41,482 bases of DNA from Candidatus Ozemibacter sp. (GCA_030446435.1 JASURT010000004.1:1-41482); one strand, 5' to 3'. Shown: positions 18,626 through 41,375, numbered from the stretch's first letter. Numbers and translations: made by a program. Notes: generated from the letters alone by a model not told the origin.

Positions 18626-20827
18626 TTATTTATCAAGGCCTTCGCGTTTCAGAATCTCGAAGAAAACTTTCACGATTTCAGGGTCGAGCTGAGAACCTGC
18701 AGCCTTTTTCATTTCCTTTTTAACATAATCGAATGGAAAAGCATCACGATAGGGCCTATCGGCAATCATTGCGTCATATGTGTCGGCAACGGCAAGAATT
18801 CTTGCGCCAAGAGGAATCTGGTCAGCTTTTAGACCCAGCGGATACCCACTTCCATCAAACTTCTCATGATGATAAAGAGTCAGCGGCGCGATATCTTTTA
18901 GTAGTTCAACCCTTTCCATGATATTTGCGCCATATTCCGGGTGTCGTTGAAGTTCATTTATTTCCTCGGCGGTAAGGTGACCTTTTTTAGAAAGTATTAC
19001 ATCTTTCACGCCGATTTTGCCGATGTCGTGCAGAAGACCGGCATATCTGACAGTTTCAATTTCTTCTTCCGTTAAATCAAGCTCGATGGCGATTTTAACC
19101 GCGTATTCCATTACCTTGGTGCTGTGACCATGAGTATATGAATCTTTTGCTTCAATGGCCGCTGCCAGAGCCATTACCATAGACAAATACTGCTCTTTCA
19201 TGTTTGCGTAAAGCTGAGCGTTTTCAATGGCAATGCTGGCCTGGGATGCAAAGGTTGAAAGCAGATCGATCTCATCCTGAGAAAAATCACGTGGTTTACT
19301 GGTGTAAATTGTGATTACACCAATGGGCTTGCCTCGCTGCATAATTGGAACGGCCAGTAAACCGGCGAGCTTTTCGCGCTTTATCATTGTGGTATAACGG
19401 GTTCGTGGGTCTTTGCGCGCATCAACGACTGAAATCGGTAATTTTTGTGAGAAGCAGTTGCCGATGATGCCTTCGCCAACCCTTATGGCGGTAGAAGTGA
19501 GAAAAGATTTCGATAAGCCACGCGAAGCTCTGACTTCAAGCAGCTCCTGGGTTTCGTCAAGCAGTCTTAACTCGCATCTGAGCGCATTCATCATTTCCAT
19601 CGAGAAATTCACGATTGAATCCAGAACTTCATCGAGAACCAGCGTTGAAGTGATCGATTGAGAAATCTCAAATAGAACTGATATTTCATCTATTCTTCGT
19701 TCAAGATAAAGACGAATTTTAACGTTCTCTACGGCAGTAGAAAGCAAATTCGAAAGGGTGGTGAAAGTGCGAAGGTGTTCGCGGTTAAAAGCTTTGTTTC
19801 GGGTCGATGAAATGTTGATCAGGCCGATGTTTTTGCCCTGAACCGTTAAGGGAACGGTCAAAAAGGACTGAATTTTGCGACGAAAAACTTTTTCCATATT
19901 CAGGGTTTTCTGTCCGGGCAAAAACAGCTGCTGACATCTAACCAGGCGTGACTCTTTACCGTGTATTTTTAAGCTGATTTCATTTATGTGAGTCGATAGA
20001 TTATCAAGACTAGAAGGAGAAAGAGGCAGCTTTGAAACAAAATACCTGGTTTCCTCATCATCTTTGAACAGGCATACCACCCCCAGATCGTGCTGTATCA
20101 ATTGAGAGAGATACTCGAACGACAACCCGATCAAACCTTCGAGAGTTTGTACCGATGAAAACCTTTTGGCCAGAACGTTCAGCTTTTCCATTTCTCTGAT
20201 TCTGCTGCTTCGTTCTTCTTCCAGGTTTAGGTGTTCAATCGCCATAGCTGCAAGATTGGCAAAAACCGTGGCTTCTTCAAGGTCGTTTATGGTGAAGGAA
20301 TTTTTCTTTTTAAGGTTGCCTATCGAAACGACTCCAACGCATCTTGTATTGGTAGTGAGCGGAATAATTATCGCTGAGTTGAAAGGCGAATTTTTAAATA
20401 GACTGTCATTCATTTCTCCGCTGTATAACAGGCGTTGGCGGCTCGAAAAGGCACTGCGCATCAGTAGAGCTTCTCCGGTAAGGTCTTCTGCAGAAACCTT
20501 TGGCTGATTATTCGGAGGACAGGGGGCGAAACCGAATTCATCTTCTGAATTCAGAATTGTTCGGCGGTCAGGGCAGGGAATTGAAGCTGGGCGCTTTCTT
20601 CTTGCCCCAACGGCTTCAGAAATTTTAAGTTCATAGGTTTCGGCGTCGAGCAATAAAAAGTAGACTTCATCTGCGTTCAATGCTTCTTTAATCGATTTGG
20701 CCATTGATTTCAGCAGATCTGTCAGCTCCATACCCGATGAAAGGGCCATGGAAATATCTGAAAGTCGTGAAAGTCTTCTAAATGTCTGTTCGGTCGAATT
20801 GGTTAGTTTCTTTTTTTTAGCTGGCAT
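18626..20827 (-). CDS. GAF-domain HD-GYP c-di-GMP phosphodiesterase-like protein
   Basis: GHSTKVMEYA, GLLHDIGKIGV, RHPEYGANIME, YHHEKFDGSGYPLGL; GAF domains upstream. ATG (MPAKKKK) at 20827 assumed, overlapping the upstream gene by 11 bp; the track ORF extends to 20896. Confidence 0.9.
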   Translation of the reverse strand: MPAKKKKLTNSTEQTFRRLSRLSDISMALSSGMELTDLLKSMAKSIKEALNADEVYFLLLDAETYELKISEAVGARRKRPASIPCPDRRTILNSEDEFGFAPCPPNNQPKVSAEDLTGEALLMRSAFSSRQRLLYSGEMNDSLFKNSPFNSAIIIPLTTNTRCVGVVSIGNLKKKNSFTINDLEEATVFANLAAMAIEHLNLEEERSSRIREMEKLNVLAKRFSSVQTLEGLIGLSFEYLSQLIQHDLGVVCLFKDDEETRYFVSKLPLSPSSLDNLSTHINEISLKIHGKESRLVRCQQLFLPGQKTLNMEKVFRRKIQSFLTVPLTVQGKNIGLINISSTRNKAFNREHLRTFTTLSNLLSTAVENVKIRLYLERRIDEISVLFEISQSITSTLVLDEVLDSIVNFSMEMMNALRCELRLLDETQELLEVRASRGLSKSFLTSTAIRVGEGIIGNCFSQKLPISVVDARKDPRTRYTTMIKREKLAGLLAVPIMQRGKPIGVITIYTSKPRDFSQDEIDLLSTFASQASIAIENAQLYANMKEQYLSMVMALAAAIEAKDSYTHGHSTKVMEYAVKIAIELDLTEEEIETVRYAGLLHDIGKIGVKDVILSKKGHLTAEEINELQRHPEYGANIMERVELLKDIAPLTLYHHEKFDGSGYPLGLKADQIPLGARILAVADTYDAMIADRPYRDAFPFDYVKKEMKKAAGSQLDPEIVKVFFEILKREGLDK

Positions 20828-22943
20828 TGTAAATGGTGCTTTCTTCAAAGGTTCTGACCTGATTGCGGCCGTTGTCTTTCGCACGATAAAGGGCAATGTC
20901 TGCTGCCTCTATAAGGTTCGAAGTTTTTTCGCACTCGGTAACTCTGGTGCAGGCAACTCCGATTGATAATGTCACAGACAATTCCTGATCATCTTCTATG
21001 ATTTTCGATTCTTCAACTTTGCTGCGAATTCTTTCTGCAAAGTGTTTGGCCCCTTTCAATGAGGTTTCTGGAAGGATAACCGCGAACTCTTCGCCACCAT
21101 AGCGTGCAACCGTATCAATCTGTTCTCTTATTGAATGACCAAAAATTTCCGCCACATGGCGTAAAACTTTATCACCTACCAGGTGACCGTAGGTGTCATT
21201 GAATTTCTTGAAAAAATCTATGTCTATAACCATCAGTGACAAGGGTTTGTCGTAGCGTTTTGCCCTGATAAATTCATGTGCAAGGGTTTCCTGAAAATAT
21301 CGATGATTGAAAAGTCCGGTTAAAGGATCTGTAAAGGCGAGTTTTTCTGTGCGTTTATGAATCAGGGCATTTTTGATGCTGGTAATAAAAATACCCGTGA
21401 ACTGAGATGTGACATCCAATTCATGATTGGTGAAAGGGTCGTCAGTTGCTCTGGAAAGGTGTATCAATCCTGCAACACGGTCTCCTATGACTATAGGCAG
21501 ATGAAGAGTTTGTTTGAATTTGCCGTAAGGCTTTTTGATTGATTTTTGCGGTTTGAAGAACGCAGGTTTGAAAAAATTCTCTTCTGTAAGAGCCGGTTCA
21601 GATGGGTATTCTCTGAAAACACCAAAGATGTGTTTTGCCAGCGCATTCTGGTATCTGGGTGAAATCGACTCAGAAGGCTGAACTATCAGGCGGTATGTTT
21701 CATCAAGATCGTCAAATAAAAGTATCGCGATAGAGGTATAAGAAATGACTTTGCTGAATTGATTGAAGGCTTTTTGCAGAATTACATAGGGATCAAGAGT
21801 CGATGCCAGATCTTTGCTGATATCAAGAAAAATTCTATTTCTGGTGGCGTTTTCTAGAAGCATTACATGGTCTTCACGAATTCGCTGAAACATTTTCTCT
21901 CTTTCAAGGGCCATGCTGAGGTTTTGCGAAATGAGATAAAGAAAACGATAATGTTTTATCGCTTTGTCATGGTCGTCAGAGTGGTAATGCCTGCTTACTA
22001 AAAGAAGATGAGAAGGGTGGTTTTCGACCAGAAGAGGAATACAGAACAATTCTCTTGGCGTTTTGTTTTCTTCGAAAGTGAGCGATAAAGGTGGCTGAAT
22101 CTGTTCGTTCTCAAAAGAGCTGACAGGCCATGAATCCATAAGTTGCGTTCTTAGCCTGCTCGATACCGAATCGAACATTTCTTTCAGCTGCGATTCTTTA
22201 AGACGATGAGATGCCAGAATTTCAAATTCAGGCGATTTTTGATTCTTTTCCGGGTAGCCCTGCTCTTTAGATCTTGTAAGCTTGATTACCGCAGAGCGTT
22301 CTAGTCCGAGCAATTCTGACAGCTTGGTCAGAAAAAGATTCAGGCTTGTGAAAAAGTCGCTTGAGTCAGCAAGAACGCAGGATAAAGTGTAAAGACCGCT
22401 TATTTCACGGCGATTTTCATTGATTGTTTCAAGCAGATTTTCTTTTTCGATCAGCCCGGCAATTGTTGTATCTACCGAAGCAAGCTTTTCCAGATCAGAG
22501 CGGGTAAAACCATCCGTTCTGCCTTCGCGGTTGAAATTCATTACTCCGATGATTCTATTGCTTATCTTCAGGGGCACAGAAAGAAAAGAACCGTTGTTTT
22601 CACGATTTCTGAGTTTGATCTTTTCGTCAGCTTTTGCCAGGTCTTCTACTATAATTGGTTTTCCGCTCGCGAAAACTTTTCCGGCGATGCCTTCCGTAGC
22701 GGCGACTTTTGCAACCGGCCCTTTAGGCTTTCTTTTCAGGCGAGGGTGCTGTGATGAAACATAGAGTTTCAGACACTTTTCTTCTGAATCATAAACCATT
22801 ATCGAGCCTGAAGATGCATCGAGAAAAGATACGGTTTCTGAAATTACAGATTCGAGCAATTTGTGTAGATCACTGCTGTTTGCTGACTTTATGGCAAGTC
22901 GCGTGTGAAAATCAAGAATTTTTCTGGCTTCTTCTGTGACCAT
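20817..22943 (-). CDS. GAF-domain diguanylate cyclase (GGDEF)
   Basis: DPLTGLFNHRYF, DIDFFKKFNDTYGHLVGDKVL, ARYGGEEFAVILP; GAF-like domains in the N-terminal part. Confidence 0.92.
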   Translation of the reverse strand: MVTEEARKILDFHTRLAIKSANSSDLHKLLESVISETVSFLDASSGSIMVYDSEEKCLKLYVSSQHPRLKRKPKGPVAKVAATEGIAGKVFASGKPIIVEDLAKADEKIKLRNRENNGSFLSVPLKISNRIIGVMNFNREGRTDGFTRSDLEKLASVDTTIAGLIEKENLLETINENRREISGLYTLSCVLADSSDFFTSLNLFLTKLSELLGLERSAVIKLTRSKEQGYPEKNQKSPEFEILASHRLKESQLKEMFDSVSSRLRTQLMDSWPVSSFENEQIQPPLSLTFEENKTPRELFCIPLLVENHPSHLLLVSRHYHSDDHDKAIKHYRFLYLISQNLSMALEREKMFQRIREDHVMLLENATRNRIFLDISKDLASTLDPYVILQKAFNQFSKVISYTSIAILLFDDLDETYRLIVQPSESISPRYQNALAKHIFGVFREYPSEPALTEENFFKPAFFKPQKSIKKPYGKFKQTLHLPIVIGDRVAGLIHLSRATDDPFTNHELDVTSQFTGIFITSIKNALIHKRTEKLAFTDPLTGLFNHRYFQETLAHEFIRAKRYDKPLSLMVIDIDFFKKFNDTYGHLVGDKVLRHVAEIFGHSIREQIDTVARYGGEEFAVILPETSLKGAKHFAERIRSKVEESKIIEDDQELSVTLSIGVACTRVTECEKTSNLIEAADIALYRAKDNGRNQVRTFEESTIYNAS

Positions 22944-25807
22944 TATCGGGTTCCCTTGAATTTTAGTGTGAGTAAGGTTAGATCGTCGTGTGCTTCTTTA
23001 GAACCTCGCCATTTTATGGCTTCGGCAATCAGGTTTTCAGTGATTTCAGATGCGCTCAGTTCGCTGAAACAATCGAGAAAGCTCTCGATTCTATCGCTGC
23101 CGAACATTTCGTTGTTTTCAGAATGTTCTTCTGAAAGACCGTCGGTAAACATTATCAAACAGTCTGAATCGGTCATTTGAAATTCCTGTTTGTCATATTG
23201 TACCGGAAGGCCCTGTATTCCCAGTGGGGGGCCACCTTTTGTTTCAATCAGCCTGATTTCTTTGTTAAGTCTGACCATAAGAGGCCCGTGCCCGGCCGAA
23301 GACATCTCTGCCTTGCCGGTTCTGGGGTCGATGGCAACGATTTGCAGGGTAACAAAATGGTAAGAGTCGAGTTCTTTCGACAGCTTGTTGTTAACCTTTT
23401 CAAGAATGGTTGTCAGATCAACCGTGTCTTGAACTACAGATCTCAACACCATTCTTGAAACAGCCATCAGAATGGCTGCTGGCATGCCTTTGCCTGAAAC
23501 GTCGCCGAGCGCAGCGAGAATTCGGCCATCATCGAGGGGAATGATATCGAAGAAATCGCCGCCAATTTGCCGGGCAGGTATGCTTTTTCCGAACATTTCA
23601 ATATTTTGCGGTAGTTCTGCAAACGACTTCGGCAGCAACGACATTTGAATGTCTCTGGCATCTTTTAGCTGGCGGTCGAGCAGTTCTTTTTCATGCTTCG
23701 CTTCAAGAAATCTTACTTTTTCAAGTGCCGTTACCACGAGATGGGCTATGGCTTCGAGCAGTTGCTGATCCTGTTGAGTAAAGGTCAGGCCGTTGGCCTT
23801 GTTGTTAACATTGATGACTCCGATTACCTTTTCTTCACCTTTTCCGCGCTTGCTGACCAGAGGAACCGAAAGAAGAGATCTGTTCAGATAGTCTTCCATC
23901 GAACGTTTTCTGAACGCACCTTCTTTTTCGATATTATCAATACGAATCGATTTACCATGCTGGGCAACGAAGCCGGAAATTTCGCCACCAATCGGGATTT
24001 TGGTCGATTCTTTAATGCCCGGCGGCAGACCGAATTCTTTTCTTATGAAGAGAAATTGCTCGGTTTCATCAAGGGTTAAAAAAGAGATTCGGTTAACCTT
24101 CAGTAGCCGACGAATGATGGCGATCATTTCATCAAAAAGAGAATCTGAGTCGGAAAGCTTTGACATTAACCCTTCAAGCGCTTTTATGGTGTCGAGTTTT
24201 TCGGCATAATTTCGCGCAACCTGCAAAGAAGCACCAATGCCGTTGAGCAGAATAGGTATGAGCTTTTGCAGAGTTTCTTCTGATAGATGTTTGTTAGCAG
24301 AATGTTCATAAAGAATTACCGCTCCAAGCGATCTTGGGGTAAGCAGATCTGGCGAAATTACCTGGGCTTGCGGGGTTGCCGAAAGGGGCAGAATATAACG
24401 AATCGGCAGCGGGTAACGTCCGTCGCGATTGTCAAATACGGCTCCTTCGTTTATAAGGTCATAAATATAAGGGTGTTCATTCATCGCGGAATGAATATCA
24501 AAATTCTCAGGAACCGGGCCGCCAAGTTGGGTGGTTACTTCGAGTTCCTGAGTTTCAAGCGAATTGATAAGAATTGCGCCGGAATATTGGCGAAACAGGT
24601 TGTTAAGGCTTTCTACCAGCTTAAACAGTATCGCGCCGATGTCTACCGACGAGTTGATCGTGTTACAGGTTTGGTTAATCTGCTGCAGCATTCTTGCTTC
24701 AAGAGCCTCTCGGCGAAGCTGGTGCAGATGACTGAAATAAAAGCCAAGCTGATTGGCCAGCATGGGCAAAATCTTTGACCTGTGATTGATATAGCGACCA
24801 AGATTGTTTTTCGATGTGAATATTCCCAGGTGACCAAAGCTTATACCGCCGGCCTGGCATGAAAAAACCAGCGGGATCAATCTTTCTTTACGGTCCTGGC
24901 CCGCTTCATTTCTGATAATATCGCGCGATATTATTGAGCGTTCGGCCAGAGCATCGAATTGTTTTACCGCATCGATCATCTCGCGAACATCGTCATCCAT
25001 TTCCTGCTCAGGCAGAAGAGAAGTTACCACAAGCTCATGCATAAAACCCGGTGCGGCATTTTGCAAAATGAAAACTGTATGAAGGTTCAATTCCTGTTGA
25101 ACCCTTGTCATAAATCTTACCAGAACCGGCTTGTCTTCTTCGAACCATTGCGACGCCTGCAGTTTTTCCTGTTCTATGGTTAGGGCGATTGCCCGGTTGT
25201 TTGCAGTAAGAATCAGCTGGGTTTCACGTATGAAAGATAAAAGCCTGTCTAAATCATTGCTCGATCTGGTTAAAAGATGCTCGGCGAATTGATATTTCGA
25301 AAAAAGCTTATTTGCGAGCAAATCAGAAAAAAGATGCCATTCTTCAAGATTTTGACATTCATCTGGGAATTCGCTCTTGATTATCAATATAAGATCGCCG
25401 AGGTGGTAGCCGTCAGTAATATAAGGGCTGACAAAAACGAAAAAATCTTCGCCGTTAAACCGTTTTCTGTGCCAACTTTCAAGTTTTAAGGTTTCGCTGT
25501 CAGAAAGGTTGCCCGAAAAATCGGTTGCTGATTCAATTTCTTCAAGAAATGCTTTATCTGAGGCAATATAGTGCCATGAGCCATCGATTTTTCCAGAATA
25601 GATTCTTAGAACTACCCCTGAAAATCCTTCCAGTTCTTCCAGAAAGTTGGTTGATAACTCGGAAGCCTGGTGAAAAGTAGAAATTTCTTCAGCTTTAAGA
25701 AGGGTTTTTAGAAAAGAGTTTTTCAATTTTTGCTCCGGGTTGGGGGTAGCAGAATATGCGCTTGATTCTTGAAAAGTATAAACCTTTTTCTTTGCCTGTT
25801 CAAGCAT
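22943..25807 (-). CDS. GAF-domain SpoIIE/RsbU-type PP2C serine phosphatase
   Basis: DARDIQMSLLPK, IGGDFFDI, LGDVSGKGMPAAILM, SSAGHGP, IMFTDGLSEEHS. Confidence 0.92.
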   Translation of the reverse strand: MLEQAKKKVYTFQESSAYSATPNPEQKLKNSFLKTLLKAEEISTFHQASELSTNFLEELEGFSGVVLRIYSGKIDGSWHYIASDKAFLEEIESATDFSGNLSDSETLKLESWHRKRFNGEDFFVFVSPYITDGYHLGDLILIIKSEFPDECQNLEEWHLFSDLLANKLFSKYQFAEHLLTRSSNDLDRLLSFIRETQLILTANNRAIALTIEQEKLQASQWFEEDKPVLVRFMTRVQQELNLHTVFILQNAAPGFMHELVVTSLLPEQEMDDDVREMIDAVKQFDALAERSIISRDIIRNEAGQDRKERLIPLVFSCQAGGISFGHLGIFTSKNNLGRYINHRSKILPMLANQLGFYFSHLHQLRREALEARMLQQINQTCNTINSSVDIGAILFKLVESLNNLFRQYSGAILINSLETQELEVTTQLGGPVPENFDIHSAMNEHPYIYDLINEGAVFDNRDGRYPLPIRYILPLSATPQAQVISPDLLTPRSLGAVILYEHSANKHLSEETLQKLIPILLNGIGASLQVARNYAEKLDTIKALEGLMSKLSDSDSLFDEMIAIIRRLLKVNRISFLTLDETEQFLFIRKEFGLPPGIKESTKIPIGGEISGFVAQHGKSIRIDNIEKEGAFRKRSMEDYLNRSLLSVPLVSKRGKGEEKVIGVINVNNKANGLTFTQQDQQLLEAIAHLVVTALEKVRFLEAKHEKELLDRQLKDARDIQMSLLPKSFAELPQNIEMFGKSIPARQIGGDFFDIIPLDDGRILAALGDVSGKGMPAAILMAVSRMVLRSVVQDTVDLTTILEKVNNKLSKELDSYHFVTLQIVAIDPRTGKAEMSSAGHGPLMVRLNKEIRLIETKGGPPLGIQGLPVQYDKQEFQMTDSDCLIMFTDGLSEEHSENNEMFGSDRIESFLDCFSELSASEITENLIAEAIKWRGSKEAHDDLTLLTLKFKGTR

Positions 25808-31396: not shown

Positions 31397-32341
31397 ATGG
31401 ATAAGAAAAAAATCGCAGAATTACTGGTTAAATTGCAGCAGTCACTGCAAAAAGTGATAATCGGCAAGCCCGAGCAAATCGAAAAGACCCTGGCCTGTCT
31501 GTTGGCTGACGGTCATTTGTTGCTTGAAGATCTACCCGGAGTTGGAAAAACTACTCTTGCTTCTGCTTTAGCAAAAGCAATTGGGGGGTCATTCAGTAGA
31601 ATTCAGTTTACTGCCGACCTGTTACCCTCTGATATCATCGGCACCCGTATTTATCGCAGACAGCGCGAAGACTTCGAATTCGTAAAAGGACCCATATTTG
31701 CGAATGTCGTTCTTGCTGACGAGTTGAACCGCGCCCCGCCGAAAACGCAAAGCGCCTTACTTCAGGCAATGAACGAATATTCTGTCAGCATCGATAAGCA
31801 ACATTACGAACTTGCGGTGCCTTTTATGGTTATTGCAACACAGAACCCGCGTGGGTTTCATGGTACTTACCCATTGCCGGAATCTCAAAGAGACAGGTTT
31901 CTTATGCGAATCTCTCTTGGTTACCCAGATCCTCTCGCAGAGAAGCAGATATTAAAAAAGTATTGGGGCATTGAAGAACTTTATCAGGTTGAATCGCTTT
32001 TCAGTCTCGATGAAATAAAACGTTGCCAGAACCTGGTTAAAGAGATCGAAATACCTGATCATGTATATGATTACATTACTCGTTTAACCAAAGCTTTACG
32101 TTCGCACGAAGAGGTTGACCTGCCCGTCAGTCCAAGAGGCAGTATTGGCCTGATGCGTGCGTCACAAGCGCTGGCATTTTTACGAAATCAGGAATTCGTA
32201 ACTATAGATCTGATTAAAGAGCTCGTGCCGGCCATATGGTGCCATCGCATCGGGCTTAAAGGGGCTGCAAGCTTTTCTGGTGAAGGTGCCTCGACCAATT
32301 GGATCGAGCACGAAATACTGCAAAGGGTAGAAATTGACTAA
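31397..32341 (+). CDS. MoxR-family AAA+ ATPase
   Basis: LLEDLPGVGKTTLASALA, RIQFTADLLPSDIIGT, LADELNRAPPKTQSALLQAMNE, ATQNPRGFHGTYPLPESQRDRF. Confidence 0.95.
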   Translation: MDKKKIAELLVKLQQSLQKVIIGKPEQIEKTLACLLADGHLLLEDLPGVGKTTLASALAKAIGGSFSRIQFTADLLPSDIIGTRIYRRQREDFEFVKGPIFANVVLADELNRAPPKTQSALLQAMNEYSVSIDKQHYELAVPFMVIATQNPRGFHGTYPLPESQRDRFLMRISLGYPDPLAEKQILKKYWGIEELYQVESLFSLDEIKRCQNLVKEIEIPDHVYDYITRLTKALRSHEEVDLPVSPRGSIGLMRASQALAFLRNQEFVTIDLIKELVPAIWCHRIGLKGAASFSGEGASTNWIEHEILQRVEID

Positions 32342-33275
32342 AGCCGGAATCAAAGTGCGACTTACATTTTATGGTAAAGTTGCTATTTTTCTCGCAGTTT
32401 TTCTGCTGTTCTCTGCACAGAATACTGGCAATAATCTGCTGTTTCTTATGAGCAGCTGTTTTATTGCCGCTGTTTTTCTATTCGGAGGTTTAGGTTATAA
32501 AAACCTTAGTGGCGTCGATGCCATTCTGGAGCCGCCTGAAGTCGTTTATGCCGACGAACCGGCAACTCTTAAATGCTTTGTTTACGAAAAAGAGAATCGC
32601 AACCATTATTCTCTCGGGTTTGAAGAAGATTTTGCCGGTCAGATTTCATCGGGCGATGCCCTAATGTTCAAGACTTCATTTAAAGCTCCTTCGCGAGGCC
32701 GTTACCACCTGTGTGATTTTTGCATCTATTCTCTTTTTCCATTTGGACTGACAATATCAAGTTTGAAATTACCTGAGACAGAAGTCTTTGTTGGTCCCGC
32801 AAGGGCAAAAAATCTACCTGCTCCTGTAGATAAAGAGATTGGCGGCGCAATTCAGAAGTTTCACTCTGGAAAAGATGGGGAATATTGGATGCAAAAGCAC
32901 TATCAGACAGGTGAAGATGCTTCGCTTATCAACTGGACCATTTCAGCCCGCTCTGACTCTGAATGGGTTTTGCTTAAAGCTCAGAACTATGGTTTTCCTG
33001 AAAAGCTTTATTTCAATTTTTCAGGAATAGAAGGAGAGTTATTCGAAGATTGTCTTGAGATGGTGATGGGTATCATTTTTCGCTTGAGAAACGCCGGAAG
33101 CAGTGCGTTTGTCTGGGCTGAGCAATTGAACGGTGATTATAACTGGCTATCGATTTCAGATAACTATTCTTTGCTTGTTCGTTGGCTTGCCAAAGTGAAA
33201 AATGCTGCGGAAATCCCCGTGCCCAGCGGCGAATGCAAGGGCATCGAGTTCGCTGACCTATTGCAGGATAGCTGA
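32334..33275 (+). CDS. DUF58 domain-containing protein
   Basis: TM-rich N-terminus followed by the DUF58 pattern (YQTGEDASLINWTISARSDSEWVLLKAQ); overlaps the moxR stop, likely TTG start. Confidence 0.85.
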   Translation: MTKAGIKVRLTFYGKVAIFLAVFLLFSAQNTGNNLLFLMSSCFIAAVFLFGGLGYKNLSGVDAILEPPEVVYADEPATLKCFVYEKENRNHYSLGFEEDFAGQISSGDALMFKTSFKAPSRGRYHLCDFCIYSLFPFGLTISSLKLPETEVFVGPARAKNLPAPVDKEIGGAIQKFHSGKDGEYWMQKHYQTGEDASLINWTISARSDSEWVLLKAQNYGFPEKLYFNFSGIEGELFEDCLEMVMGIIFRLRNAGSSAFVWAEQLNGDYNWLSISDNYSLLVRWLAKVKNAAEIPVPSGECKGIEFADLLQDS

Positions 33276-35383: not shown

Positions 35384-38332
35384 ATGATAAAAGTTTCTGA
35401 CCGCAGGTTTTCTCGTCTGAAGAGCTGGGCGCTGATTTTTTTTCTCAGTCTTTTGCCGGGTATTATCTTCCTATGGGACTGGAACCCTGAAGGCGAGGGG
35501 GATTTTCGCCGGGAAATCGTTTCTCAGGAATGGTTTCGCCGAATGGACAAGGTTGCGGATCGGTTTGGGAAAAGTTCTGACCGAAGCTTCTGGTGCTCTC
35601 TTTCTGTTGAACGCTTCAAGAATCTGGTTTACCGAGAACTTGAATCCAAAAAAACATTGAGTTCGGCATTTGCAAAATCCTGGGCAAACTACCGGCCTGA
35701 TAACTTTCCAAATGCCTCTGTTCAAGTCTTTTTTAAACAGAAAAAAGCCTGGCAAAATCAGTCCTTTGGCCCTCGTGTTTATACTTCAGATTACCTGGTC
35801 AGAAAGCTTTTTTCTGAAATGGTTTTGAAGGCGGGAAATTTTGCAGACAATCTTTCTGACAAAAACTGGGAACAGAGAATTAAAACCCTTTTTGGTCACA
35901 TGATTTTTCCGGATTTGTTTTTTGAAGAAAACAGAAGCACCCCCTTTTCTGCATTGATAAAAAAAAGACCCTACAGGGTTATCTGGGATTTTATTTACGA
36001 TAAGAAGAATCAGACGATAATCGGTGGCTACTTTTTCTATTTTCCAGAAAATTACGATGAAAAGATATTGCCTGGTAAATTGATATTACAATACTGGCAG
36101 ATGATTTGTGATGAAGAAGGCATTTATCCGGTAATGCTGCCTCTCAATTCTGAAGACCCCAGTTTGATCGTTCATTCGGCTATTGATAAGCCACAACTAA
36201 GAAAAGATCTTGAAAAGTTCAGGTTAAACTACATTAAGCGAGTTCCAAGCCCAGTACCTGAATTGGCTGATAAAGCCAGATTGCCGGGCGAGATTTCCGG
36301 CTCTACTTTCAATGTTGGCTCTTACCTTGCCCGCCTATGTATCCTCAGTGCCGAATGCGGACATGTTGGTCTGATTCTGGGTTCTCGGCCTGCCCCACAA
36401 AACACCTTAAGGCAGCAGATTTCAGATGTTTATTTTACAATCGCCGCCATTTTTTGGGGAATGTTTTTGTTCAGACTTGTTTTGTTCAGAGAAGTTCCGA
36501 CTGTCAATCTCAGGTTCAGGGTCATGGCGTGGTTTCTTGCTTTCGCAGCTTTTCCGGCAGGCCTTACTATCAGCGCCTGGTCTTCATTGATACAGGATTT
36601 CGAAGATTACAGAATCGAACAGATGCAGAAGGCATTACATCAATCAGTTTTAAATATCGAAACCGGTTTGTCTAAAATTGATTCGTTTTTTCTCGAGGCA
36701 TCGAAATCGGTTATCAATAAAAAGGGTTTTCTCGATTCTATAATCGAACTTCCAGAAAATCCTGAGAATGACGAAAAAGTTTTTGAAAAAGTTTTCTCTG
36801 ATTACCATCAGAAAGGAATCGATATTGACTCTGCAATGCTTATCGTGCAGGGCGGCTGGTGTTTTCGCAGTTTTAAAAAAGAATCGACCGCCAAGGATAA
36901 GGCCGGACTGAGAAATGGCATCGCTGCGCTTATAAATCAAGTGTTCGCAAACGCAAATCCTGAGGTTTACCAAAGATTCACGCCGCCAGGCGGAAAATAT
37001 GCAGACAAAAAAGTGCCGGCTATTTTGAATATGGCAGATCTGGATGTTTACGACAATGTAAAGTCATTGCGAGACATTTTTGATGGCGTATCTGACATCA
37101 ATAGCGACAACAAAAACTATCTTCAGTTCCTTTATCAGTTCAATGCTTTCAATGGGCCATTTGCCGTCCTGGTAGTTCATTGGGACTGGACTGAAATGGT
37201 GGAAAAAAAGATTCGGCTTTTGATGGCCGAAGAGAGTCTGAGATTCAAGAAAAGCTGGGGAGTGGTGCCTGACTTTTCTGTTTTCAGGGCCAGTCCACAA
37301 GGCATAATGCCCGTTTGCCATACCGGTCATTCTTCGCAGATGCAGAAAATGGCTGAGTTTCCCGTCAGTAAGTTAAGCAGATTTTTAGACAGTTTTTCTG
37401 CTTCTATCATGGTCCCATCTGCAAGATTGCCTGATTTGCGCATGGTCGCAAGGGCTTCTGTTGCAGACGTAAAACTGCTGGTCGCAGAAGAAAAAGGCAT
37501 GATCGTTTTTTCTGTGACAGCCCTTTTGCTGATTATCGTGATTGGTGCTTCAGGCGCAACTATCTGGATCACACGCCCGATTAAAAAGATATCAGAAATA
37601 CTTGGCAGTTTGAGTTCGGCAAATGAACCGGGTACATATTGCCCTGCAAGAAAAGACGAGCTTGGTCTGGCGGCAAGATCGATTACAAGAATGACGGAAT
37701 GGATTCTGCAGCGGCAAAGGCTGGTGAAATTCATTTCGCCAAAGGTTCTGGAAGTGGTTTCCGGCGGCAATGCCTTTAAAGCTGGTGCCGGCACTTTGCA
37801 GGAAGTAACGATTCTGGTTTCAGATATTAGATCTTTTACCACGATAACTGAAGAGCAAACAGTGGAAGAGGTTTTTGAAATGGTGAATAATCACCTGGCC
37901 CGAATGGCTTCGGATATTAAAGATTGTTCGGGGATTATCGATCGGTATGTTGGCGATGCTGTTTGGGCTGTGTTTTTTGATCAACATCCCAAAGGCGGCA
38001 TCAATGCTCTTAAAGCTGCGCAAAAGATGATGAAATCGCATCGCCAGATACAACAGGACCGGTTGCATGCCAACAAGTTTCGTTACGACATAGGTATTGG
38101 AATCGTCAAAGGAAAAGTTCTGGCGGGAGTTATGGGTGATTCAAGTGTCAGGCTTGATTACACAATCGTAGGCGAAGCCTTGAATGAAGCCGAACGTCTT
38201 GAAGATCTTTCCAAAACCGCCGGTTTAACCGGTATCGTCTTTTCAGAAGAACTCCGGGAATGTGCTTTGAAAGCCGAAATTCCTTTTGTAAAACTTGCTG
38301 CGGAAGTTTGTGAGGTGTCTTCGCTTGAGTAG
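35384..38332 (+). CDS. Membrane-bound HAMP-class III nucleotidyl cyclase (catalytic metal Asps present)
   Basis: TM segments and HAMP region (TRPIKKISEILGSL), cyclase domain ILVSDIRSFTT, DRYVGDAVWAVF, RLDYTIVGEALNEAERLE. Confidence 0.9.
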   Translation: MIKVSDRRFSRLKSWALIFFLSLLPGIIFLWDWNPEGEGDFRREIVSQEWFRRMDKVADRFGKSSDRSFWCSLSVERFKNLVYRELESKKTLSSAFAKSWANYRPDNFPNASVQVFFKQKKAWQNQSFGPRVYTSDYLVRKLFSEMVLKAGNFADNLSDKNWEQRIKTLFGHMIFPDLFFEENRSTPFSALIKKRPYRVIWDFIYDKKNQTIIGGYFFYFPENYDEKILPGKLILQYWQMICDEEGIYPVMLPLNSEDPSLIVHSAIDKPQLRKDLEKFRLNYIKRVPSPVPELADKARLPGEISGSTFNVGSYLARLCILSAECGHVGLILGSRPAPQNTLRQQISDVYFTIAAIFWGMFLFRLVLFREVPTVNLRFRVMAWFLAFAAFPAGLTISAWSSLIQDFEDYRIEQMQKALHQSVLNIETGLSKIDSFFLEASKSVINKKGFLDSIIELPENPENDEKVFEKVFSDYHQKGIDIDSAMLIVQGGWCFRSFKKESTAKDKAGLRNGIAALINQVFANANPEVYQRFTPPGGKYADKKVPAILNMADLDVYDNVKSLRDIFDGVSDINSDNKNYLQFLYQFNAFNGPFAVLVVHWDWTEMVEKKIRLLMAEESLRFKKSWGVVPDFSVFRASPQGIMPVCHTGHSSQMQKMAEFPVSKLSRFLDSFSASIMVPSARLPDLRMVARASVADVKLLVAEEKGMIVFSVTALLLIIVIGASGATIWITRPIKKISEILGSLSSANEPGTYCPARKDELGLAARSITRMTEWILQRQRLVKFISPKVLEVVSGGNAFKAGAGTLQEVTILVSDIRSFTTITEEQTVEEVFEMVNNHLARMASDIKDCSGIIDRYVGDAVWAVFFDQHPKGGINALKAAQKMMKSHRQIQQDRLHANKFRYDIGIGIVKGKVLAGVMGDSSVRLDYTIVGEALNEAERLEDLSKTAGLTGIVFSEELRECALKAEIPFVKLAAEVCEVSSLE

Positions 38333-41300
38333 AACTTCGGCAAAACAAAAGCTTATCGCGCCCAGCAGATCATTCTTCATCGTAACAATGGTATGCTTCG
38401 TCATGATCGGAATTCTAATGATTTTGAATTACGCTGACAAAGCTCTAAGGCAGGCTGAAGTCGAAAGAGCGACCTCTGAGGCCAGAGACAAACTCTTATT
38501 GGACCTCAGGCTATTGCAAAAAGCGGCTGTTGCAGAAGTGCATTTTGGCAGTAACTTGTATTCAAAATTGTCTGAGCTGGCAGAAAGTGTTCCAGAAGGC
38601 GAAAACTGGCAGAGGCTTATTGATAAGCATTTACAGGCAGAGACGCAAAGCTGGAGCGGCCAGCCGGCATGGTTTATTTATGATTATGAACAGTTAAACT
38701 ATTTTTCAGGTCTTTCAGGGCAACCGCCGGCTAATAACGCCATTTCTGGCGGCCAAAAACATGCGTTCTCAGAAAAAATTGTCCGGTATTTTTGCCTTAA
38801 AGGAACCTATAACTTTACCAATATACCAATACCTCTGGAGATAGCTGATACGGTCGGAGAATATTTCGAGGCGGCTATCGACGAAAAAGTTGCCAAAGAC
38901 CAGTCTGACTTTATCAGATCATCGATGGCCAGATTTAAAGAAATAAGAATAGATGACGAGCCTTTTTACATTGCCTGGTTCCCTTTGTTTAAGCGAGATT
39001 GGGCAGAATCTCCACTTCGATTTTCGAAGATTGATCTGGCGAAATTCGACAAGAGGCAGCTGGCAATGATGCATTTGCATGGGCTGGTGGCTCTGGTGTT
39101 TTCTGATGAAGATTTTGCAGCATTGCGCAAGAAAGATTTTCGCCGTGCACTTATTGAGAACTATGCTCGTACAGGCTGCAAAATAAGGTTTAAAAGGTAT
39201 GCGAGTTTGAATCAAAACGAACAGAAAAGATTTTTGATTCCGCAGACACACCTGATGAAAGATGGCAGGCTTGTTGGAACGGCAAGAGTCTTGTTGGATG
39301 AGTATTTTCTGGTATTCGCAGAGAGAGTATCTGAACTTGATACCAGACTGGCAAAATCAAAAAGAATTCTTGGTTTTATTCTGAAGCTGTGCTGGTTTGT
39401 TTTTGGACTTCTGGTTGTCGGTAACTATTTTATAATGGGCAGACAAATTGAACACAAGATCGTGGTCCAGCTTATCGTTTTCATTCTCTGGATCCTTTTT
39501 CCTGCATATTATATTGGTTATTGTGCTACAGAAAGATATGTTCTTGAAAAGCAAACCGCATCGATGTCTTATCTTAAGAGCGGTTTGAGTGAGCTTACCA
39601 GAGCGTTTGACAGCTCGATAGAACTTTACAAAACCTGGGTTTGTGATAGAATTTCAACTGCTTTGGACAAGAGTGTTGCCGGGCGAAAAATAGATCTGAA
39701 GACAATGAGCGAAAGCGAAGCCCGTTTTTTGCTCGATTCAATTCAAAGAGAGCTTCTTGCGAACGGCGTATTTTCAAAGAATCTTATTCTGGTTGACTCG
39801 GGCGGAAGAATTTATTCGTATCTTTTTGGCGCAGATTCGAAAGAAAAAAAGTTTTTCCAAAGCTTTTTCCGGGCTTTTTACCTTCCCACAATTACCAGCC
39901 GGATAAAAGATGTTTCTGACGTTGATAACAAAGCCGGTAGCGATCTTTTGCTCGGCGCTCAGGCCGAAGAACTGGTTTCGATTGCCAGAAGTATTGTGCC
40001 GGTTCGGTCACTATCAGAGATGGCGATAAAGAGAGTTTCTCTTGACCACTTTGAAGGTTTGGGCGATCAGGCCTTTATTTTTCACAAATATCTGGGGCAA
40101 AAAACTGAAGCAAGCACGGTAATTCAGGTCGGAATCTTTTTGCCCTCGATCGAAAGAAACTGCATGCTTGACTGGATCGAGAATTATTCAGATTCAAAGT
40201 TCAAAAATCTTGACTGGGTCATATCTCGTCGCGATTCGCCGTCGTGGTTTCTCAGAGCTCCTTTCTGGAAAGCCATAAAAACTGGCAAAATGGGTTTGCT
40301 CAATCCGGTATACGATTTTCTACCTGAAAGACTTCTTTTCTGGAGTCATGTTGGAAACCGTCTTAGTGAGCCTTTTTCTACCACAATTGATTTTGCTGGA
40401 AAAAAGGTTTTGTTTTCGAGCTTTAAAGGCCAATCAATGCTTGAATACCAGATAGGCGCATTATTGCCTCTTGATAATCATTATCAGAATCTCGAAAGAT
40501 TTCATCGGGGCCTTCTTCTCGCAGTTACGGCAATTTTCATCGTTTGCGCGCTGATTGGTTTCAGAATGGCCCGAGGTTTCATGGAACCGGTAAAGAGTCT
40601 GGCAGAAAACGCAGAGAGAATTATGGCGGGGAATTTTTCGGCCCGAATTGGTGATAATTGGGAAGACAGTGAAATTTTTGAACTTGGTCGAAGTTTTGAC
40701 AAGGTTGCCGCGGACCTGGAAACCGGTCGAACTTTGAAAAAATTTGTCTCTGACAGCGCGCTTGAGGTGATTCAGGGTAAAAGCGAAGAACGGACAAATT
40801 TGCGTAAAAACCAGGCAGTCGTTTTGTTCTTACGCCTGGATAATTTCTGGAGCCAGACTCAAAGTATGGCACCCGAAAAAGCTGTATTTGAATTGAACAG
40901 ATTTTTCAGTCTTGTATGTCGAGAAGCTGCTATGGTGGGATGCGATGTAAATAAGTTCATTGGCGAAAAGACACTTGCTGTTTTTCGTATCGATTCAGAA
41001 GATTCGGTTGCCGAAGTTGCTCGAGCCGCCGCAAATTTTTCGCTTAAGCTGGTGCAGATTTCAGCTTCTCTCGATGGAATTTTTTCTAATTGTAGAATCA
41101 GGGTGGGTATAACCCTCGGTAAAGTGCTTTCGGGTACAATTGGTGGTGAAGATACCAGGCTTGAACAAACTTTGGTTGGCGATACCGTCAATCTGGCTTC
41201 AAGACTTTGTACATTTAAAAGTGAATATTCTATTCTTACCAACTCTCTTTTTGCAGAGGCTTTGAATAGCGCTGATGCTGAATCTTTGCAGGTTGTTAAG

Positions 41301-41375
41301 ATTCCTGATCAGGTGATCAAGGGTAAAAAGGAAGCTGTAAGTATTTATGCTTTGAAAAAATCAGGTGAAATCTGA
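38325..41375 (+). CDS. Membrane-bound HAMP protein with degenerate class III cyclase homology domain
   Basis: Same overall layout as the preceding gene; cyclase-like VVLFLRLDNF, NKFIGEKTLAVF, LEQTLVGDTVNLASRL. TTG at 38325 with upstream GAGGTG chosen; the track start is 38295. Confidence 0.85.
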   Translation: MSRTSAKQKLIAPSRSFFIVTMVCFVMIGILMILNYADKALRQAEVERATSEARDKLLLDLRLLQKAAVAEVHFGSNLYSKLSELAESVPEGENWQRLIDKHLQAETQSWSGQPAWFIYDYEQLNYFSGLSGQPPANNAISGGQKHAFSEKIVRYFCLKGTYNFTNIPIPLEIADTVGEYFEAAIDEKVAKDQSDFIRSSMARFKEIRIDDEPFYIAWFPLFKRDWAESPLRFSKIDLAKFDKRQLAMMHLHGLVALVFSDEDFAALRKKDFRRALIENYARTGCKIRFKRYASLNQNEQKRFLIPQTHLMKDGRLVGTARVLLDEYFLVFAERVSELDTRLAKSKRILGFILKLCWFVFGLLVVGNYFIMGRQIEHKIVVQLIVFILWILFPAYYIGYCATERYVLEKQTASMSYLKSGLSELTRAFDSSIELYKTWVCDRISTALDKSVAGRKIDLKTMSESEARFLLDSIQRELLANGVFSKNLILVDSGGRIYSYLFGADSKEKKFFQSFFRAFYLPTITSRIKDVSDVDNKAGSDLLLGAQAEELVSIARSIVPVRSLSEMAIKRVSLDHFEGLGDQAFIFHKYLGQKTEASTVIQVGIFLPSIERNCMLDWIENYSDSKFKNLDWVISRRDSPSWFLRAPFWKAIKTGKMGLLNPVYDFLPERLLFWSHVGNRLSEPFSTTIDFAGKKVLFSSFKGQSMLEYQIGALLPLDNHYQNLERFHRGLLLAVTAIFIVCALIGFRMARGFMEPVKSLAENAERIMAGNFSARIGDNWEDSEIFELGRSFDKVAADLETGRTLKKFVSDSALEVIQGKSEERTNLRKNQAVVLFLRLDNFWSQTQSMAPEKAVFELNRFFSLVCREAAMVGCDVNKFIGEKTLAVFRIDSEDSVAEVARAAANFSLKLVQISASLDGIFSNCRIRVGITLGKVLSGTIGGEDTRLEQTLVGDTVNLASRLCTFKSEYSILTNSLFAEALNSADAESLQVVKIPDQVIKGKKEAVSIYALKKSGEI

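Follow-up and report, generated by a model that had tools for sequence, protein, structure and literature searches.

Do two adjacent bacterial genes, each of which encodes a membrane protein with an incomplete class III cyclase domain, specify the two halves of a single enzyme? The question is raised by a locus of Candidatus Ozemibacter sp. (GCA_030446435.1, JASURT010000004.1:1-41482), where the whole stretch of DNA that was analysed, here called the window, is 41,482 nucleotides long. The window genome is a metagenome bin (84% complete) that belongs to the Candidatus Riflebacteria (Ozemobacteraceae) and yields 36 cyclase-domain matches. Within class III dimers the metal-binding Asps are contributed by one protomer and the Asn, the Arg and the triphosphate Lys by the other, and in the mammalian heterodimer one of the two sites works and the other does not (PMC2576301).

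Organization of the locus

The two genes, referred to as P1 and P2, are arranged in tandem, and the features on which the following sections rely are listed below in window coordinates.

31397-32341, plus strand: MoxR ATPase upstream of P1, recognized by Pfam, gene order as in Ca. Ozemobacter sibiricus (locus L143)
32334-33275, plus strand: DUF58-like gene upstream of P1, without a Pfam match and named from its position and its homology to L143
33275-35374, plus strand: TgpA-type transglutaminase upstream of P1, recognized by Pfam, gene order as in L143, TgpA also found in locus L125
35384-38332, plus strand: P1, C1-type subunit of 982 amino acids (ORF, Pfam, transmembrane prediction, AlphaFold2 model)
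37568-37696, plus strand: HAMP linker of P1 (amino acids 729-771), weak and below the cut-off with the single sequence, clear with the family profile
37694-38329, plus strand: C1-type cyclase domain of P1 (amino acids 771-982), with metal residues D814 and D858, R854 at the substrate-Lys position, T927, N934 and R938, without a KGK loop
38310-38332, plus strand: gene overlap, with a Shine-Dalgarno-like GAGGTG and a TTG start within the end of P1, read from the sequence; orthologs overlap similarly
38325-41375, plus strand: P2, C2-type subunit of 1016 amino acids, TTG start at 38325 (ORF, Pfam, HMM alignment, transmembrane prediction)
40707-41372, plus strand: C2-type cyclase domain of P2, metal Asps replaced by Arg and Glu, Lys/Thr/Asn/Arg and KGK loop retained

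Both proteins match the Guanylate_cyc family (PF00211), P1 with 45.3 and P2 with 46.6 bits against the Pfam cut-off of 21.9, and four transmembrane helices are predicted in each (in P1 at amino acids 12-30, 349-367, 380-398 and 705-723). The layout of P1, for which the AlphaFold2 model has a mean pLDDT of 86, comprises two extracytoplasmic modules, a HAMP linker and a class III cyclase domain in which the two metal Asps are retained. The HAMP linker of P2 scores above the Pfam cut-off, and a profile built from P1 relatives matches solved HAMP domains.

The overlap of the two genes, which had been claimed in the first-pass annotation, is real, as the TTG codon at 38325 lies 8 bases before the P1 end in the context GAGGTG-tcttcgc-TTGAGTAG, and is likely to reflect translational coupling; tandem orthologs overlap as well (ATGA junctions in L143 and L126, and a TTG start just 5′ of the stop codon in L125). 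The possibility that P1 and P2 are a single fused gene split by a frameshift was rejected, since P1 stops where other C1 domains stop; it is also countered by the GAGGTG that precedes the TTG start and by the similar overlaps in the tandem orthologs.

Two further Riflebacteria genomes share the TgpA-P1-P2 locus, and the closest relatives of P1 and P2 are likewise tandem genes (L125, L143 and L126). The P1 ortholog of L125 is 32% identical over 967 amino acids and is flanked by a TgpA gene upstream and by the start of a P2 homolog downstream, and in L143 the MoxR-DUF58-TgpA genes are found upstream with one gene inserted. Elsewhere in the window (18626-25807) the minus strand carries a signalling cluster that consists of a GAF-rich HD-type (PF13487) protein, a GAF-GGDEF diguanylate cyclase and a GAF-SpoIIE phosphatase.

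Catalytic residues of P1 and P2

The motif states that had been reported for the two proteins were read again from the DNA, and every codon proved correct. The P1 codons are D814 at 37823, R854 at 37943, D858 at 37955, T927 at 38162, N934 at 38183 and R938 at 38195; those of P2 are Arg at 40833, Lys at 40953, Glu at 40965, Thr at 41169, Asn at 41190 and Arg at 41202, with the Lys of the KGK loop at 41319. An HMM alignment of the six catalytic positions assigns D R D T N R to P1 and R K E T N R to P2. The full class III set (two metal Asps, Lys, Asp/Thr, Asn and Arg) is present in P1 and P2 together and in neither alone, and the two proteins meet the C1/C2-type pattern in which one member has the metal Asps and the other has Lys/Thr/Asn/Arg and a broken metal site. 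The Thr at 41169 of P2, in place of the base-selecting Asp, meets the class IIIb criterion, the nearest catalytic domains being those of the CyaB/CyaC/OaPAC type.

The first-pass annotation had further pointed to the Asn and Arg of the NEAER motif in P1. Both residues are present, but they cannot be regarded as a defining trait; they are a leftover, given that one or both are missing from almost every other C1-type domain. The closest P1 ortholog (L125) reads DRDTQD and has neither residue, thus the lineage as a whole has not kept the Asn and Arg of P1. Among 91 C2 domains only one is more divergent than P2, which still keeps Lys/Thr/Asn/Arg.

Complementary pairs in the family

From the loci that were read, 93 non-redundant pairs were collected (50 fused and 43 tandem), a count that is approximate as some genes were seen via two loci (for example L047/L077 and L106/L165). 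Complementary residues were found in 92 of the 93 pairs, the exception being a wrongly paired triad, and since no correctly paired member of the family departs from the complementary loss, it cannot be put down to chance. Among the C2-type domains Lys, Thr, Asn and Arg are each kept in 92 of 92, which answers one objection anticipated at the outset, namely that these residues might be free to vary in the second partner; 91 of 92 are without the first metal Asp, and the remaining domain has lost the second. This last domain (L128, 4555-5154) reads DKNTNR and is the only C2-type domain with the first metal Asp kept, its metal site still being broken. In the C1-type domains, which were classed by their metal Asps, it is the Lys, Thr, Asn and Arg positions that drift, and in the C2-type domains the two metal positions. 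The triphosphate Lys sits in the KGK loop, and this loop occurs in 84 of 91 C2 domains versus 14 of 91 C1 domains.

Fused members are single ORFs of about 1,500-2,500 amino acids with the order membrane-C1-membrane-C2. In an alignment of 48 natural fused segments the columns are on average 23% identical, and D84 and D128 (C1) along with K1022, T1093, N1100 and R1104 (C2) are invariant. Six tandem pairs have the reversed order, with the C2-type gene first and the C1-type gene second (L023, L156, L157, L158, L161 and L151), and are still complementary, so complementarity tracks the pair and not the position of the gene. Some loci are more elaborate: L201 is a triad of two C1-like genes and one C2-like gene, L161 has a complete cyclase beside its reversed pair, and a 140-kb contig (C152 of genome G002; loci L075, L076, L138 and L139) carries three consecutive fused C1-C2 genes of about 2,130-2,145 amino acids each.

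The triads L161 and L201 were mis-paired and were left out of the co-variation analysis, for which 91 pairs remained. Distances among the C1 domains co-vary with those among their C2 partners (Mantel r 0.89, the best of 999 shuffles reaching 0.08). A tree built without the six motif columns places the C1 domains in one clade (support 97) and the C2 domains in one or two groups, the position of P2 being unsure owing to its long branch. For a second objection that had been foreseen, that gene 1 might occur in the absence of its partner, no clear example was seen; the apparent orphans are mostly truncated loci, some belong to a mis-paired triad, and not all of them could be resolved.

The sources are metagenome-assembled genomes, one record name does not fit, and it could be argued on these grounds that fused ORFs and complementary residues are artefacts of assembly or binning. 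This is scarcely credible in view of about 50 fused ORFs of similar layout that come from many independent assemblies, long contigs among them, without internal stops, and of the three fused genes that follow one another in one 140-kb contig.

The window genome itself contains nine completely visible C1/C2 pairs, eight of them tandem and one a fused ORF of 1995 amino acids, and in all nine one member has both metal Asps and the other has Lys/Thr/Asn/Arg and a broken metal site. The stand-alone cyclases of this genome keep all six residues (DKD[T/D]NR), and the families f2-f8 of the same phylum are, where the locus was read, single-domain proteins that also have all six.

These data bear on two accounts in which P2 would take no part in catalysis. 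In one, P1 is an active homodimer with Arg standing in for the substrate Lys, and P2, itself without catalytic activity, only senses or regulates; P1 does retain both Asps, Thr, Asn and Arg, and P2 has no metal site whatsoever. Such an arrangement is unlikely, as nearly all other C1-type domains, the L125 ortholog included, lack Asn and/or Arg and could not function by themselves, P1 has no KGK loop, and Lys/Thr/Asn/Arg, for which a purely regulatory pseudoenzyme would have no need, are kept without exception in C2-type domains. A weak P1 homodimer nevertheless remains possible on the residues alone, because P1 keeps Thr, Asn and Arg and differs only by the Lys to Arg replacement and the absent KGK loop. 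In the other account neither protein is an enzyme, the decayed cyclase folds serving as dimerisation or ligand-binding modules of receptors. Although each domain is incomplete by itself and P2 is highly divergent, one full residue set per pair, conserved in about 90 pairs, is not what decay leaves behind, and this account is considered very unlikely.

A probable heterodimeric adenylyl cyclase

It is highly probable that a single membrane-bound adenylyl cyclase of class III (IIIb-type) is made up of P1 and P2, each forming one half. The heterodimer that had been put forward in the first-pass annotation gains support from the complementary residues, their conservation, the co-divergence of the partners, their fusion in relatives and the conserved locus, all of which are apparent at the level of sequence; the formation of the heterodimer is itself an inference, and activity, product and ligands are untested. 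P1 would be the C1-like half that supplies the two metal Asps, and P2 the C2-like half that supplies the substrate Lys, the Thr, the ribose-orienting Asn, the transition-state Arg and, from the KGK loop, the triphosphate Lys. With the metal Asps from P1 and Lys/Thr/Asn/Arg from P2, a heterodimer would be complete at one catalytic site and degenerate at the other, like mammalian membrane and soluble adenylyl cyclases, and any role of the degenerate site is a matter of inference. A homodimer of P1 would be without the substrate Lys and one of P2 without any metal ligand. The overlap of the genes would allow the halves to be made together, and in many relatives the halves are fused into one chain.

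That the product is cAMP is likewise inferred. The base-selecting positions carry Lys and Thr, the combination that marks class IIIb adenylyl cyclases, and both residues are invariant in C2, which argues against cGMP or another cyclic nucleotide as the product. The PDB title of Cya2 (2w01), which is close in structure, names it a guanylyl cyclase; the closest sequence matches of P1 and P2 are, however, the adenylyl cyclases OaPAC, photoactivated cyclase beta subunit and CyaB, and a product other than cAMP seems quite unlikely. Domains that bind cyclic nucleotides occur in ten ORFs of the window genome, thus cAMP receptors are plausible.

Fold and sensor modules

One natural fused segment was modelled as a single chain with AlphaFold2 (mean pLDDT 81.8, pTM 0.62). 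The best solved matches of this model in Foldseek are human AC5, AC9 and AC8, which span both halves over 1,130-1,200 columns with query TM-scores of 0.28-0.33, versus 0.14-0.18 for single-domain cyclases. For a model, scores of this size are about what would be expected from superposing both domains at once, and the match is suggestive only because the rmsd is high (about 26-34 Å) and the C1:C2 interface was not measured.

Each half of the putative enzyme would consist of two extracytoplasmic modules, four transmembrane helices and a HAMP linker in addition to its cyclase domain. As each half has sensor modules of its own, two different sensor halves may converge on one active site, although control by these sensors is inferred. 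The extracytoplasmic modules of P1 are confidently modelled at amino acids 33-341 (window 35480-36406) and 400-693 (36581-37462). The second begins with a long helix that is followed by two beta sheets, and perhaps has a dCache-like fold, an impression that rests on the modelled secondary structure only. No Pfam family match was found for the sensor modules of P1 and P2, and no sequence match to a solved structure was found outside the HAMP and cyclase domains.

Distribution and significance

A fused dimeric class III cyclase was described in a 2022 review as unknown in bacteria (Schultz 2022, PMC9552081), and literature searches on the cyclases of Riflebacteria brought up no relevant work. 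Class IIIb catalytic domains, HAMP linkers and C1/C2 complementarity are each known; their combination in a bacterium was not described in the literature searched and is new as far as that search goes, yet priority is not proven and the 2022 statement is dated. Among the matches listed, no two-domain ORFs were encountered in a sample of 59 genomes from the phylum of a locus titled Desulfonema, nor in a sample of 60 genomes from the phylum of a locus titled Terriglobia. Loci titled Cohnella, Terriglobia, Chloroflexi and Desulfonema have single domains that read DKDTNR or, once, DKDTNG. An apparent spread to another phylum, suggested by loci L160 and L195 of 'Ca. Methylomirabilis' (DYKG01), was rejected, since its genome yields the same contig positions as G001, a genome from the genus to which the window belongs; the public name Candidatus Methylomirabilis for DYKG01 appears to be wrong.

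Taken at the scale of the phylum, it is likely that membrane adenylyl cyclases of the mammalian C1/C2 design arose independently in the Riflebacteria and underwent a massive expansion there. They would be obligate heterodimers in which one site is active and the other degenerate, many of them fused into one chain with two modules. If this is true, then the sequence of duplication, subfunctionalisation and fusion, held to be a eukaryotic event, happened in bacteria too, and dozens of natural fused and unfused versions would make it possible to test what fusion and the degenerate site are worth. Riflebacteria genomes hold both forms together, in many paralogs with different sensor halves, and bacterial heterodimeric cyclases are possible tools for two-input cAMP signalling.

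Comparison with known cyclases

The closest solved relatives of the Riflebacteria domains, by sequence as well as fold, are the bacterial class IIIb enzymes OaPAC, bPAC, CyaB, Cya2 and CyaC, all of which form symmetric homodimers from chains that each carry the full residue set. The mycobacterial Rv1625c/Cya, which is taken as the progenitor of the mammalian enzymes (PMC9433096, PMC9552081), is also a membrane-bound bacterial class III cyclase but differs in being a homodimer with two productive sites, encoded by a single gene and having six transmembrane helices. Heterodimeric guanylyl cyclases, such as mammalian soluble guanylyl cyclase and the NeoR/RGC proteins of fungi, resemble P1 and P2 in that homologous class III subunits are encoded by separate genes; unlike them they are eukaryotic and GTP-specific, and RGC1/RGC2 have no catalytic residue missing (PMC8815786). 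Human ADCY10, a class IIIb pseudoheterodimer that is matched by the profile of P1 relatives, shares two complementary catalytic domains with one competent site (PMC4506562), but is cytosolic and has neither membrane modules nor HAMP.

A parallel in design is offered by the class IIIa pseudoheterodimers ADCY1-9, which likewise combine two membrane modules with two cyclase domains, have the metal Asps in C1 and the Lys, Asn, Arg and loop Lys in C2, possess one active and one degenerate site, follow the same order as the fused relatives, and include the best structural matches (AC5, AC9 and AC8) of the fused segment. The Riflebacteria proteins differ in having Thr rather than Asp as the second base-selecting residue, HAMP linkers, and in each half four transmembrane helices with large extracytoplasmic modules instead of six transmembrane helices; their pairs are often two separate genes, the TM-C1-TM-C2 single chain being found only in fused relatives. 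By the criteria of the mammalian type the window pair therefore fails on the single-chain layout (it is two genes), on six transmembrane helices per half and on the base-selecting Asp. Because in sequence they stand nearest to homodimers of bacterial class IIIb and not to mammalian class IIIa enzymes, the likeness of the C1/C2-type Riflebacteria cyclases to the mammalian enzymes would, judged from these relationships, best be read as convergence.
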